From Sulfurimonas hydrogeniphila (GTDB lineage Bacteria; Campylobacterota; Campylobacteria; Campylobacterales; Sulfurimonadaceae), in contig NZ_CP035534.1 in the NCBI RefSeq assembly GCF_009068765.1, forward strand, positions 1,674,001 through 1,738,000: DNA of 64,000 nt. The letters are read 5' to 3'. Under the pieces are notes generated by a model. The model saw only the letters and a program-made list of their open reading frames with translations. It ran no database searches and was not told the DNA's origin. The stretch's first letter is position 1. Each line of letters opens with the position of its first letter. Below are positions 14,153 through 19,131 of this stretch, piece by piece. A program made the translations under genes and the position numbers.

Positions 14153-15925
14153 ATGAAATTTATACAGCTTTTTTTACTCTTTGGGATATTTTTATACGCT
14201 TCGGTAAAAACACCTTCTGATGTCTATTCTCAGTCTATTGTGCTCAAACAGATGGTTGAAGAACTGCGCAAAGAAAACGGCATCACAAAACCACTTAAAG
14301 AGGTTGAACAGCAACATAACAAACTGCCGCGGCATGTTATTCAAAAAACACTTGAAGTGTTGACAAAAGTAAACAAATACAGAGAAATACACAACTTTGG
14401 TCCTATTGCCATTCCGCCTGTTCCTCCAAGAAAAATTACCCCGCAGGATGTATATAACAATGTCATACGACTAAAAGAAGAGATTCACTACCTGCTCAAA
14501 AACCAAAAAAAGTACTTTGCTTACAAACAGTACAAAGACAAAACACCGAGTGATGTTTACCAGGTACTCTGGACAGTTTCTCTTGGTTTTGATGAGTTGC
14601 TGGGACAGGGATTTACCCCAAGTGATGTTTATATCCAGTCACAGCAGATTCTTGAGCGTATTGAATTTTTACGCTCTTCACAAAGAGAGTACAGTGATGT
14701 AAAAATGCCGCCAAAACGACCAAACCTTCATCCGAATCATGCACTCTATGCCTCAATAGATTTGATAAAAAAGATAAGTGAAGTTGAAAAAAAACTCTGG
14801 ATGACGCCCGTACCTGTACCAAAAGCCAAGCACAAAGTCATCTCTCCCACAGAAGTATATGACTCTCTGCAAACCGTCAAAGCAGAGCTTAACAGACTCT
14901 CTCGCCGTTTGGGAATAGAAAGAAGCTTTCCACCAAAAAAACTCCAAACAAAAAAGACACCTTCGGATGTCGTCCAAAATCTTGAGTATGCAAAAGCACT
15001 TCTGCCTGCTTTTGATTTTTCTCATCCGCTCAATCAGTATCCACAAAAATCACTTACCAAAACACCTAATGAAGTTTATGCACTCAGCGAATATATTTTG
15101 CATAAAATTATGCGAATCAAAGAGAGAAGAGGCATCCAGCTCAAAGCGAAAAAAGTACCGTATGTCTATGGACTTGAGCCTATTTATGTCTATGTTAAAG
15201 GACTTGAAGATTTGGAAAAAACAGCAAAACTAAAATCACTCGAAGGATTTTACCCCTCACAAATCCCTGATGCACCAAATACAAAAATAACACCAAGTGA
15301 GGTATATGAACTCATTTTACGACTTGATGATGAAATCAACCTAGTTTACAATACAAAAAAATATAATTATAATTTTATCTCCTACAGAAACTACCTCGAG
15401 AAAAAAATATACCAGGACAAGACACCTTCTGATGTTTATAATCTCTTATGGAAAATATCGTATGAACTTGATACAATTTTAAACCAGGAGTATACTCCGA
15501 ATGAGACCTATATTCTTGCTGTCAAACTCTACAAAAACATCCAGACTGTCAGTTATCATTTGACGCAAAAACAGATACTTGTTCCTTTGCTGAAGTATGA
15601 ATCAAAAGCTCCCTCTGATGTCTTTATGCAAAGTCTGCAACTCATGCAGACACTTACAAAAATCAAAAAAAGAGGCAATCTCAACTCAGCAACACTTACT
15701 ATTCCGCGTGACAAAATCATCACACCAAACTCTGTATATAATGCCTTGCGCCTCATCAGCGGGACTGTTTCAGAACTGCGCGTTTACTATAATATACAAG
15801 AGCATACAACTGCGCTCTCACAAAAAACACCAAAGAACAAAACACCTTCAGATGTTTTTAGTGTCTTAGAGGCAACAAACAAACTCGCACAACAAATTCT
15901 CAAAGACAGTACCTATGCGTATTAG
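14153..15925 (+). CDS. Exported protein of 16 TPSDVY repeats in two arrays
   Basis: This 590-residue protein starts with a signal peptide (about 1-17, FIQLFLLFGIFLYAS) and is then built almost wholly of units of about 38 residues. Each begins with a TPSDVY-like motif followed by a helix of about 20 residues. By hand, motifs start at 20, 58, 96, 131, 155, 194, 231, 269 and again at 304, 342, 380, 424, 448, 486, 524, 564. The second set of eight repeats the spacing of the first with an offset of 284-295, including the same short 24-residue gap between units 4 and 5. Units 2 (LPRHVI), 6 (PNHALY) and 10 (EPIYVY) are degenerate. No cysteine, enzyme motif or anchor is seen. It overlaps the downstream kinase gene by 11 bases, so it is probably a periplasmic ligand-binding or structural partner of that kinase. 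The family was not recognised. Confidence 0.85.
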   Translation: MKFIQLFLLFGIFLYASVKTPSDVYSQSIVLKQMVEELRKENGITKPLKEVEQQHNKLPRHVIQKTLEVLTKVNKYREIHNFGPIAIPPVPPRKITPQDVYNNVIRLKEEIHYLLKNQKKYFAYKQYKDKTPSDVYQVLWTVSLGFDELLGQGFTPSDVYIQSQQILERIEFLRSSQREYSDVKMPPKRPNLHPNHALYASIDLIKKISEVEKKLWMTPVPVPKAKHKVISPTEVYDSLQTVKAELNRLSRRLGIERSFPPKKLQTKKTPSDVVQNLEYAKALLPAFDFSHPLNQYPQKSLTKTPNEVYALSEYILHKIMRIKERRGIQLKAKKVPYVYGLEPIYVYVKGLEDLEKTAKLKSLEGFYPSQIPDAPNTKITPSEVYELILRLDDEINLVYNTKKYNYNFISYRNYLEKKIYQDKTPSDVYNLLWKISYELDTILNQEYTPNETYILAVKLYKNIQTVSYHLTQKQILVPLLKYESKAPSDVFMQSLQLMQTLTKIKKRGNLNSATLTIPRDKIITPNSVYNALRLISGTVSELRVYYNIQEHTTALSQKTPKNKTPSDVFSVLEATNKLAQQILKDSTYAY

Positions 15926-17867
15926 TCTCTCAACAAAGGTTGCCATCGGCACTTTCATCATTGCCACGGTCGGAATACTTGTGATTGTCTTTTTCTCTTT
16001 TTCTCTTATGATGCAGTATTCAAAAGAGAATTCCCTTGAACAACTCAACTTTGAGCTCAAACAAAACAAAGAAAGTATTCACAACGACATCCAACAGGTT
16101 GTTTATGATGCAAAAATCCTCTCAAAAAATGAAGATGTTACAGCATATTCGCGGGCATTTTACAATCCTTACAGTTATGATAAAAAAACAAACAGAACTT
16201 TAAAAGGAATAGAGTCTTCTCTTGAAAAAAACTTTATCGCTCTTTTATCGCACAACGATGCCTATTTCAACATCCGTCTTTTATATAAAACCGGTTGGGA
16301 ACTCCTTGTCACATATAAAGACAAAGAGGGTGTACATATTCAGAAAAAGAGTCTTTTACAAGACAAATCAGCAAAAAAATACTTTCAAGAAACAATAAAA
16401 CTCCATCCTGAAGAGGTTTCTGTCTCAGATATAACACTCAATGAAGAGTATGGACAGCTTTCCTATCCGCTTACGCCGACTATTCGCATCTCTTTACCAA
16501 TATATATTGACAAAAAACTCTTTGGTATGCTCATCATCAATGCAAATATCAATAAACTTTTTCGGGTGATTAAACAATATGATGACAAAAACAGCCCTAA
16601 AAACATCTATCTTGCAGACAAAAACAAATACTATATTTACAATAAGGACCAAAGCAAAACATTCGGATATGTGTTTGGGCACAAAGACTACAGGCTTGAT
16701 TATGATTTTGATCTGAGTAAACAGAGTTATTATAAAGACGATATATTGTTTACCTATACAACACTTCACTATACAAAAGATAAATTCATATATATTGCAC
16801 TGACATCTACAAGCAGTTTTTTACAAAAAGACTATAAAAAATTTATTCACTCACTCACACTTTATAGTTTGCTAGTCTCCTTGCTTATTGCTTTGATCTC
16901 ACTTATACTTGTCCGTTGGCTTATCACACCACTCAGTAAAATCACCCAGGCTGCAAAAGCCATTGCCGATGATACGTCAAAAAACAACATTGACTTCAAT
17001 ACTATTCATACGCATGATGAAATCGAAGAGTTGGCAGACTCTCTGCAGATTATGCTTCAAAAGTTAGAAGAGTCAAAAAAAGATGTCGAGAAAAAAGTCA
17101 AAGAACGCACAGAAGAACTTAACAAACTCAATGAAACACTCGAACAACTGGTGAAAGAAAAAACAAATGAAAATATCAAACAGCTTGAAACACTTCAACA
17201 GCAGAGTAAACTTGCCTCCATGGGAGAGATGATAGGCGCCATTGCCCATCAGTGGAGGCAACCGCTTAACGAGATAAGCATAGCCGTCCAAAATCTCAAA
17301 TATGATTATGAAGACGGATTAATTACAAAAGAGTACCTTGATGACTTCATAAAATCAACAAAAAAAGTAATTCAGTTTATGTCCGATACCATTGACGATT
17401 TTAGAAATTTCTACCGGGTTGACAAAACACAGGAACGCTTTAGTGTAAAAGAAGCGGTACAAAGAGTTCTCTCTATTCAAACAGCGCAACTGCAAAACAA
17501 CAACATCAAAGTTACACTCCTTGGTGAAGATTTTGAAACAATCGGGTACAAAAATGAACTGCAGCAGGTTATTTTAAACCTTATAAACAATGCAAAAGAT
17601 GTTTTGCTTGAAAGAAATATCAGTGACGCTAAAATTACAATTATTTTAAAGAATCATACAGTAATAGTACGTGATAATGGTGGGGGAATCACTCCAGAGG
17701 TTATAGACAGGATTTTTGAGCCCTACTTTACGACAAAAGAACAGGGCAAAGGAACAGGAATGGGTCTGTATATGTCTAAAATGATGATTGAAGAAAATAT
17801 GAACGCAAAACTGAGCGTAAAAAACACCGGCGAAGGTGCAGAATTTAGGATAGACTTTGATGAGTAA
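15915..17867 (+). CDS. Two-TM sensor histidine kinase with periplasmic sensor
   Basis: This 650-residue kinase has TM1 at about residues 9-33, a periplasmic region of about 280 residues that looks like a double-Cache sensor, TM2 at about 318-340, a HAMP segment (RWLITPLSKITQAAKAIADD), a long coiled coil (about 385-435) and a kinase core. The H-box is GAIAHQWRQPLNEIS, the N-box ILNLINNAKDVL, and the G-boxes RDNGGGI and GTGMGLYMSK. The AHQWRQPL form is common in Campylobacterota. It sits between the repeat protein and the regulator with overlaps at both ends, so all three should be made together. Confidence 0.93.
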   Translation: MRISLSTKVAIGTFIIATVGILVIVFFSFSLMMQYSKENSLEQLNFELKQNKESIHNDIQQVVYDAKILSKNEDVTAYSRAFYNPYSYDKKTNRTLKGIESSLEKNFIALLSHNDAYFNIRLLYKTGWELLVTYKDKEGVHIQKKSLLQDKSAKKYFQETIKLHPEEVSVSDITLNEEYGQLSYPLTPTIRISLPIYIDKKLFGMLIINANINKLFRVIKQYDDKNSPKNIYLADKNKYYIYNKDQSKTFGYVFGHKDYRLDYDFDLSKQSYYKDDILFTYTTLHYTKDKFIYIALTSTSSFLQKDYKKFIHSLTLYSLLVSLLIALISLILVRWLITPLSKITQAAKAIADDTSKNNIDFNTIHTHDEIEELADSLQIMLQKLEESKKDVEKKVKERTEELNKLNETLEQLVKEKTNENIKQLETLQQQSKLASMGEMIGAIAHQWRQPLNEISIAVQNLKYDYEDGLITKEYLDDFIKSTKKVIQFMSDTIDDFRNFYRVDKTQERFSVKEAVQRVLSIQTAQLQNNNIKVTLLGEDFETIGYKNELQQVILNLINNAKDVLLERNISDAKITIILKNHTVIVRDNGGGITPEVIDRIFEPYFTTKEQGKGTGMGLYMSKMMIEENMNAKLSVKNTGEGAEFRIDFDE

Positions 17868-19131
17868 GAATGATATTGCTATATTGTATGTGGAAGATGA
17901 AGTACATGTAAGAGAGATGCTCTCACGCTTTTTGCAGCGTTTTTGCACTAAGCTTTATATTGCAAAAGATGGAGAAGAGGGGCTGTCTTTGTACAAAAAG
18001 CACCATCCGGATATTGTTATTTCAGATATCCGTATGCCAAAAATGAGTGGACTCGAGATGGCTGAAGCCATCAAAAAAATCAATCCTTCCCAACTTATTA
18101 TGCTCATAACAGCCCACAATGACAGTGAATTTTTACACAAAGCCATTAACCTTGGAATAGACGGCTACATTCTCAAACCGGTAGATTTGGATGCTGTGAA
18201 TGAAAAATTAAAAACTCTTATACAACGCATACAAAACGAAAGAGCGGCACAGCAGCTCAAAGAGAGCGAAGAGAAACTAAAGCTTCTTTCACAGGCTGTG
18301 GAACAGATGCATGAAATGGTACAGATTACAGATGTTGACGGAAAAATCATTTATGTAAATCCTGCGGCAACCGAGAATACGCAATATGAAGAGAATGAAC
18401 TTGTAGGAAAAAGCAACCGTATACTCAAATCAGGAGAACATTCAAAAAAGTTTTATGATAATCTATGGAAAACTGTTTCAGAGGGAAAAACCTATCAAAA
18501 TACTTTTATCAACAAAAGAAAAGACGGAAGTCTGTACTATGATGAAAAAATCATCTCTCCCATAAAAGACAAAGATGGAAAGGTGCGCTACTTTGTCTCC
18601 ACAAGCCGTGATATAACACAACGGATTGCTCTGGAAAAAGAACTTCAAAAACTTGCAACCAAAGATGCGCTTACAGGTCTGTATAATCGCTATAAAATGT
18701 CAACACTTATAGAAGATGAAATAAAAAGAACAAAACGCTACGGTGAAGTTTTCAGTCTTCTTATGCTTGACATAGACAAATTTAAGAATGTCAATGACAC
18801 CTATGGACATGATGTGGGCGATTATGTTTTGCAGGAGTTGAGTCGTATTGTTTTGCAAACCATAAGAAAAACGGACAGTTTCGGGCGATGGGGCGGTGAA
18901 GAGTTTATGCTGCTGACCCCCCATACAAATACACAACAGGCTATGGAACTTGCCCAAAAAATACGTAAAGGTGTAGAAGAACATCCTTTTAAACATGTAA
19001 AAAAAATCACAGTAAGTATTGGCGTTACAGAGTACATAAACGGAGAAAAGGAAACATCACTCTTAAAACGCGCTGATCAGGCTTTATACGAGGCAAAAGC
19101 TTCCGGGCGCAACCGGGTAGTCTTTTTTTAA
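17860..19131 (+). CDS. Response regulator with PAS and GGDEF domains
   Basis: About 423 residues. A receiver domain (1-120; VEDE, phospho-Asp in DIVISDIRMP, Lys in ILKPVD) is followed by a short coiled coil, a PAS domain (about 145-255; ITDVDGKIIYVNPAAT) with its PAC tail, and a GGDEF domain (about 265-423) with the intact active site GRWGGEEF. It is predicted to make cyclic di-GMP when phosphorylated by the upstream kinase. ATG at 17860 is preferred to the TTG at 17857; the gene overlaps the kinase stop by eight bases. No EAL domain is present. Confidence 0.93.
   Translation: MSKNDIAILYVEDEVHVREMLSRFLQRFCTKLYIAKDGEEGLSLYKKHHPDIVISDIRMPKMSGLEMAEAIKKINPSQLIMLITAHNDSEFLHKAINLGIDGYILKPVDLDAVNEKLKTLIQRIQNERAAQQLKESEEKLKLLSQAVEQMHEMVQITDVDGKIIYVNPAATENTQYEENELVGKSNRILKSGEHSKKFYDNLWKTVSEGKTYQNTFINKRKDGSLYYDEKIISPIKDKDGKVRYFVSTSRDITQRIALEKELQKLATKDALTGLYNRYKMSTLIEDEIKRTKRYGEVFSLLMLDIDKFKNVNDTYGHDVGDYVLQELSRIVLQTIRKTDSFGRWGGEEFMLLTPHTNTQQAMELAQKIRKGVEEHPFKHVKKITVSIGVTEYINGEKETSLLKRADQALYEAKASGRNRVVFF

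Follow-up and report, generated by a model that had tools for sequence, protein, structure and literature searches.

Within the 64,000-nucleotide stretch of the Sulfurimonas hydrogeniphila genome analysed here (the window), a gene that we call REP encodes a repeat protein of sixteen units which, judging from comparisons of its units and homologues, arose by whole duplication of an eight-unit ancestor. Since the gene almost everywhere adjoins the gene for a membrane sensor, REP is most likely a periplasmic co-receptor of an undescribed type, a soluble adaptor that serves only the neighbouring transmembrane sensor and sets kinase activity, a reading to which we give somewhat better than even credence.

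The initial annotation had described an exported-type protein of 590 residues with 16 units in two equally spaced arrays, and every detail that we checked against the open reading frame and the unit positions was correct. The units begin at residues 20, 58, 96, 131, 155, 193, 231 and 269 in the first array and at 304, 342, 380, 424, 448, 486, 524 and 564 in the second (Table 1), with spacings of 38, 38, 35, 24, 38, 38, 38 and 35 residues followed by 38, 38, 44, 24, 38, 38 and 40. The offset between the arrays is 284-295 residues and the 24-residue unit occupies the same place in both, exactly as claimed. The TPSDVY motif has diverged in units 2, 6 and 10 (LPRHVIQ, HPNHALY and EPIYVYV, respectively), with position and helix retained. 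The composition is lysine/arginine-rich; the N-terminus, whose sequence predicts export, has no lipobox, and a residue count found no cysteine anywhere in the mature protein.

Table 1. Features of the REP locus, in window positions.
Feature	Position	Strand	Basis
REP gene, putatively exported 16-unit repeat protein, 590 aa	14153..15925	+	ORF and family relatives
REP N-terminus, signal-peptide-like, MKFIQLFLLFGIFLYASV	14153..14206	+	sequence; start hydrophobic in almost every relative
First 8-unit array, residues 20-303	14210..15061	+	unit profile, AlphaFold2 model
First-array unit starts	14210, 14324, 14438, 14543, 14615, 14729, 14843, 14957	+	
Unit 4, short, 24 residues, first array	14543..14614	+	unit profile; helices 132-150, 156-176
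Second 8-unit array, residues 304-590	15062..15922	+	unit profile, AlphaFold2 model
Second-array unit starts	15062, 15176, 15290, 15422, 15494, 15608, 15722, 15842	+	
Unit 12, short, 24 residues, counterpart of unit 4	15422..15493	+	best-scoring unit pair
Partner membrane histidine kinase	15915..17867	+	PF21623 sensor, HAMP, HisKA, HATPase
Response regulator REC-PAS-GGDEF (diguanylate cyclase)	17857..19131	+	overlaps kinase gene

That an eight-unit ancestor was duplicated whole had also been claimed, and the claim is borne out by the unit comparisons, the tree and the existence of stand-alone eight-unit proteins. The two halves align with a Smith-Waterman score of 326, far above the 42 +/- 7 (maximum 80) of residue shuffles; when whole units were shuffled (n=1000), the score was 187 +/- 31 with a maximum of 318. 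With the six motif residues omitted, the profile similarity of the units was 1.60 at an offset of eight and 0.44-0.92 at all others, and when the units of the second array were put in 100,000 other orders, only 6 reached the offset-8 score. Stand-alone eight-unit homologues of 300-326 aa exist, and a profile built only from these (A2) matches the two halves of REP separately, with E-values of 2.2e-44 and 9.5e-28. A maximum-likelihood tree, its root not fixed, was built from 62 sequences comprising halves and short proteins. It brings the first halves together (100/99) and places the second halves in a group of their own (95/94), so that one duplication predates all 16-unit proteins compared. 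The eight-unit array itself probably derives from a four-unit block that went unremarked in the initial annotation, a weaker case than that for the step from 8 to 16: units 1-4 resemble units 5-8 in order, which makes a four-unit ancestor likely, the actual order ranking first of 24 in the short (8-unit) form, while in the long (16-unit) form 9 of 576 orderings match or beat the offset-4 order.

Modelling of REP and a search for its repeat in other genomes, both proposed at the outset, yielded confident all-helical models and a family that spans several phyla in 8- and 16-unit forms. AlphaFold2 models built with 26 sequences reached a pLDDT of 89.9 and a pTM of 0.89 for the whole protein; residues 19-303 modelled on their own gave 92.5 and 0.88. 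Each unit is modelled as a single helix of about 21 residues, capped at its N-terminus by TPxDVY; the helices span residues 21-41, 59-79, 97-112, 132-150, 156-176, 194-214, 232-252 and 270-283 in the first array and 305-326, 343-363, 381-399, 425-443, 449-471, 487-507, 525-545 and 565-582 in the second. Most of the modelled linkers are long, mostly about 17 residues and often proline-rich, and linkers of about five residues occur only at units 4-5 and 12-13. Going by these lengths, the helices within a four-unit block can run parallel, and a tight reversal would join the two four-unit blocks of one array. The superhelical, ligand-binding scaffold suggested in the initial annotation is a conjecture that goes beyond the all-helical build supported by the models. 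Comparison with the PDB gave nothing significant, either by Foldseek (best E 0.36 for whole REP and 2.1 for the first half) or by VIA-align (Z at most 5.3, whole or half), and whole REP had no significant match among viral structure models. The absence of a fold match is not proof of a new fold.

Sequence searches with REP and a profile of its 26-member family found no meaningful match above cut-off in Pfam or NCBIfam and no family in the PDB, where 8fjf H10 (E 0.006 over 44 residues) lacked a significant stretch; the earlier view that the repeat is not TPR, Sel1 or Kelch thus holds. TPR proteins were sought as 34-residue helix-turn-helix units matching TPR profiles; no TPR model matched, and the AlphaFold2 models have one helix per unit of about 38 residues. 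Neither Sel1 nor Kelch was matched in Pfam by any of the 26 members, and since the model contains no strands, REP is not a Kelch propeller. Nor does it belong with the periplasmic solute-binding proteins, taken as two-lobed alpha/beta folds matching SBP profiles, since it is predicted to consist of helices only; no strand was modelled, and neither Pfam nor NCBIfam gave a match of that kind. The PexRD54 WY domain (PF22748, 42 residues, curated cut-off 27 bits) was weakly scored in 8 of the 26 members, and was rejected: its 26.6 bits were gathered from scraps, with a best stretch of 12 residues and no single significant one, and the score reflects convergence of the repeated helix start. In the literature, we found no paper on the TPSDVY motif or on PF21623.

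A scan of contigs with the single REP sequence gave no match, and it was an alignment-based scan that found the relatives. Of the 99 genomes in the relatives set, 15 carry the family (S. hydrogeniphila included), as do 11 of 397 Campylobacterota genomes, 21 of 48 genomes in the class of a Magnetococcales MAG (L041), 3 of 293 in the order of an Oceanospirillaceae MAG and 4 of 24 in the phylum of a Nitrospirae MAG. Many of the relatives are MAGs, and some unexpected hosts, for instance a Persephonella MAG (L036), may reflect faulty binning. Identity to the S. hydrogeniphila protein is 34-38% for 16-unit members from Oceanospirillaceae, Magnetococcales and Nitrospirae. Conservation is higher in the first half than in the second (2.96 versus 2.51 bits per column), and many charged or polar positions are invariant, for example R39, Q64, K65, E68, K72, R77, R93, R106, E110, D147, R248, R252 and E256.

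The start of the partner kinase gene overlaps the 3' end of REP by 11 nt, and the two TM segments of the kinase (residues 9-27 and 319-337) flank a PF21623 sensor that scores 71 bits and is related to PDB 3lid, a structure listed as dCache_1 (PMC4822843). This is the only PF21623 gene found in the S. hydrogeniphila genome. The REP-kinase-GGDEF order is retained across phyla at almost every locus whose flanks are long enough, including nearly all 16-unit loci of Campylobacterota, and the pairing of REP with a kinase recurs in Oceanospirillaceae, Magnetococcales, Nitrospirae and Rhodospirillales MAGs. The linkage to kinases, flagged early as worth checking, is strong and crosses phyla: in a table compiled by hand from search coordinates, a PF21623 sensor lies directly downstream on the same strand in 51 of 65 REP genes. 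PF21623 was found in all 15 REP-bearing relatives versus 25 of the 84 without REP (Fisher p 2e-7; relatedness is uncorrected here and in the other counts). Many PF21623 genes occur without REP, and in 20 loci of such genes read from REP-free genomes REP was seen in none, one contig (G043) ending at the kinase start.

Beyond the window, the sensor stays constant and the output varies. The operon of the 8-unit form differs from that of the window but is just as well conserved, in Campylobacterota, Magnetococcia and Nitrospirota. It comprises REP, a PF21623-HAMP-GAF-HisKA-REC hybrid kinase, a CheB-CheR fusion and, on contigs that extend far enough, a REC-GGDEF protein, and from its gene content links a kinase to a chemosensory-like methylation module. 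We observed these partner genes beside an 8-unit REP at locus L088 (8763-15211) and at the Magnetococcia loci L138-L145. At another locus (L092) the partner is a PF21623-GAF-SpoIIE protein. The linkage of REP, as read from these gene orders, tracks the sensor and not the output, be that a kinase, a hybrid kinase with CheB-CheR and REC-GGDEF, or SpoIIE; and since REP is usually the first gene of the operon, it would be the input component. REP could conversely be an output, a secreted scaffold or matrix protein under control of the adjacent c-di-GMP pathway. In favour of this, REP opens an operon that ends in a diguanylate cyclase, and matrix components are often repeat proteins. Against it, what is conserved next to REP is the sensor domain, with outputs that differ, and almost every family member has either 8 or 16 units, in contrast to the freely varying repeats of adhesins; we consider this reading quite unlikely.

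The other fourteen REP genes have no scored PF21623 sensor directly downstream. One lies at a contig end (G463:C29, L044), and another (L043) is followed by a homologous kinase in which PF21623 was not scored. A third (L154, 2328-3579, in G819) lacks its inner units and is fused in frame to an apparent fragment of a histidine kinase dimerisation domain, with a lone receiver gene next, and is probably a deletion remnant of a REP-kinase-regulator operon. Two are tandem, very divergent 8-unit genes (L086, 8257-11851, in G063) that alternate with genes for membrane PAS-GGDEF/EAL proteins, in which no known sensor family was matched by the periplasmic part, and three divergent members (L148, L155 and L157) adjoin 4HB chemoreceptors. 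Two others are orphans (L038 and L151), the 16-unit copy of a Campylobacterales MAG (G070, L038) having no signal peptide in the called ORF and many motifs lost. The contig that holds this degenerate copy also encodes an unusually long DNA gyrase A (L038, 2769-7838) of 1689 aa with apparently two intein-like insertions. The remaining four are REP-like genes of a single genome (G588; L149, L150 and L158) of the order of the Oceanospirillaceae MAG. In this genome, which has no PF21623, the copies on contigs C34 and C21 adjoin porin-like genes (PF13609/PF13372 matches), and by comparison no porin-like neighbour was seen for the copy on C6. Such porin-adjacent genes might suggest a transport-associated periplasmic protein, with ligand binding first and signalling second, that was later recruited beside sensors in most lineages. 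This we regard as very unlikely: G588 is the only such genome seen among the 293 of that order searched, and the scenario is in any case compatible with a co-receptor role in the S. hydrogeniphila window.

One locus lacks REP. In L116 (G056:C196, 3824-3905) the gene is cleanly missing between GNAT and the kinase, with 81 nt in its place, and the gene order is otherwise that of the window (PTA, YchJ, GNAT, kinase and GGDEF regulator); the kinase is 63% identical to the S. hydrogeniphila partner. This could be a natural loss or a MAG assembly artefact; if there is no assembly error, the kinase can persist without REP, G056 keeping both kinase and regulator. Such persistence would fit an accessory inhibitor. 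REP could be a subunit that reports the state of the envelope, binding an envelope polymer or outer-membrane protein rather than a small solute and restraining the kinase until titrated off, as in CpxP-CpxA. An all-helical, cysteine-free, lysine/arginine-rich protein would suit this function, as would the porin-like neighbours in the G588 branch. CpxP, however, is a small helical dimer that lacks repeats of the REP type, and no envelope-related genes surround most loci, so that we think this alternative unlikely.

We return to the co-receptor. REP combines a signal-like N-terminus with a gene encoded alongside that of a membrane sensor, and the orphan G070 copy, with no signal peptide in its called ORF and many motifs lost, counts in favour. 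Counting against it are the G056 kinase without REP, if its assembly is correct, and the porin neighbours in G588 without PF21623; moreover, PF21623 is itself a sensor domain and may bind ligand directly, and many PF21623 genes have no REP. In a mirror-tree comparison, the divergence of REP follows that of the sensor (rho 0.86) hardly better than that of the kinase domain (rho 0.83), so that co-evolution does not single out the sensor. In the proposed mechanism REP would be exported, would fold as a wholly helical protein with one helix per unit and, by analogy with known systems, would dock on the periplasmic sensor of the kinase encoded by the overlapping gene. A ligand or other envelope component binding REP could then alter this contact and set kinase activity, in whichever direction, and phosphate passed from the kinase to the REC-PAS-GGDEF protein would change c-di-GMP. 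Elsewhere, REP-type co-receptors may act on hybrid kinases with CheB-CheR, SpoIIE phosphatases, GGDEF-EAL proteins and chemoreceptors. Because the partner gene switches between kinase, phosphatase, cyclase and chemoreceptor, the role can be tested directly, and an unnamed family without a detectable fold relative would give orphan PF21623 sensors a testable input. REP is also a clear case of stepwise repeat doubling in which the 8-unit intermediate form is still extant.

Several known systems invite comparison. The peridinin-chlorophyll protein exists in 8- and 16-helix forms, with duplication-derived halves and half-size relatives, and thus also has two 8-helix halves; its units are much shorter than those of REP, there is no sequence relation, and at rank 23 in the Foldseek list of REP (E 5.8) it is not a match and serves only as a lead. 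The alpha-solenoids of TPR and Sel1 proteins share helical tandem repeats of similar unit length, but have two antiparallel helices per unit joined by tight turns, whereas REP is modelled with one 21-residue helix and an extended return of about 17 residues. The PF21623/dCache family (VP0354, PDB 3lid) includes the sensor of the partner kinase, with REP itself outside the family as an extra component. Partners of the LuxP type have a two-lobed alpha/beta binding-protein fold, and LuxP, TorT and XylFII differ in this from REP, which is predicted to be all-helical with 16 single-helix units and has no sequence or fold match. What LuxP-LuxQ, TorT-TorS and XylFII-LytS (PMC6321045) would share with the proposed system is an exported soluble protein acting on a membrane sensor. 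Binding proteins act on the sensor kinases LuxQ, TorS and LytS and on chemoreceptors, a pairing pattern that the occurrence of REP with several receptor classes resembles (PMC6321045). The periplasmic domain of LuxQ belongs to the Cache superfamily, as does the sensor of the REP partner (PMC4822843). The periplasmic co-receptors of sensor kinases reviewed to date are solute-binding proteins (PMC6321045); whether there is a second, structurally unrelated class, all-helical, grown by doubling from 4 to 8 to 16 units and working in at least three phyla on dCache kinases, phosphatases, c-di-GMP enzymes and chemoreceptors, is in our estimate evenly balanced. A further comparison is with NspS, a periplasmic protein that controls c-di-GMP through the membrane receptor MbaA (PMC8967002), as we propose for REP. 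NspS, though, is a polyamine-binding protein and MbaA itself makes and degrades c-di-GMP, whereas the kinase of the REP system would act through a separate REC-PAS-GGDEF protein.
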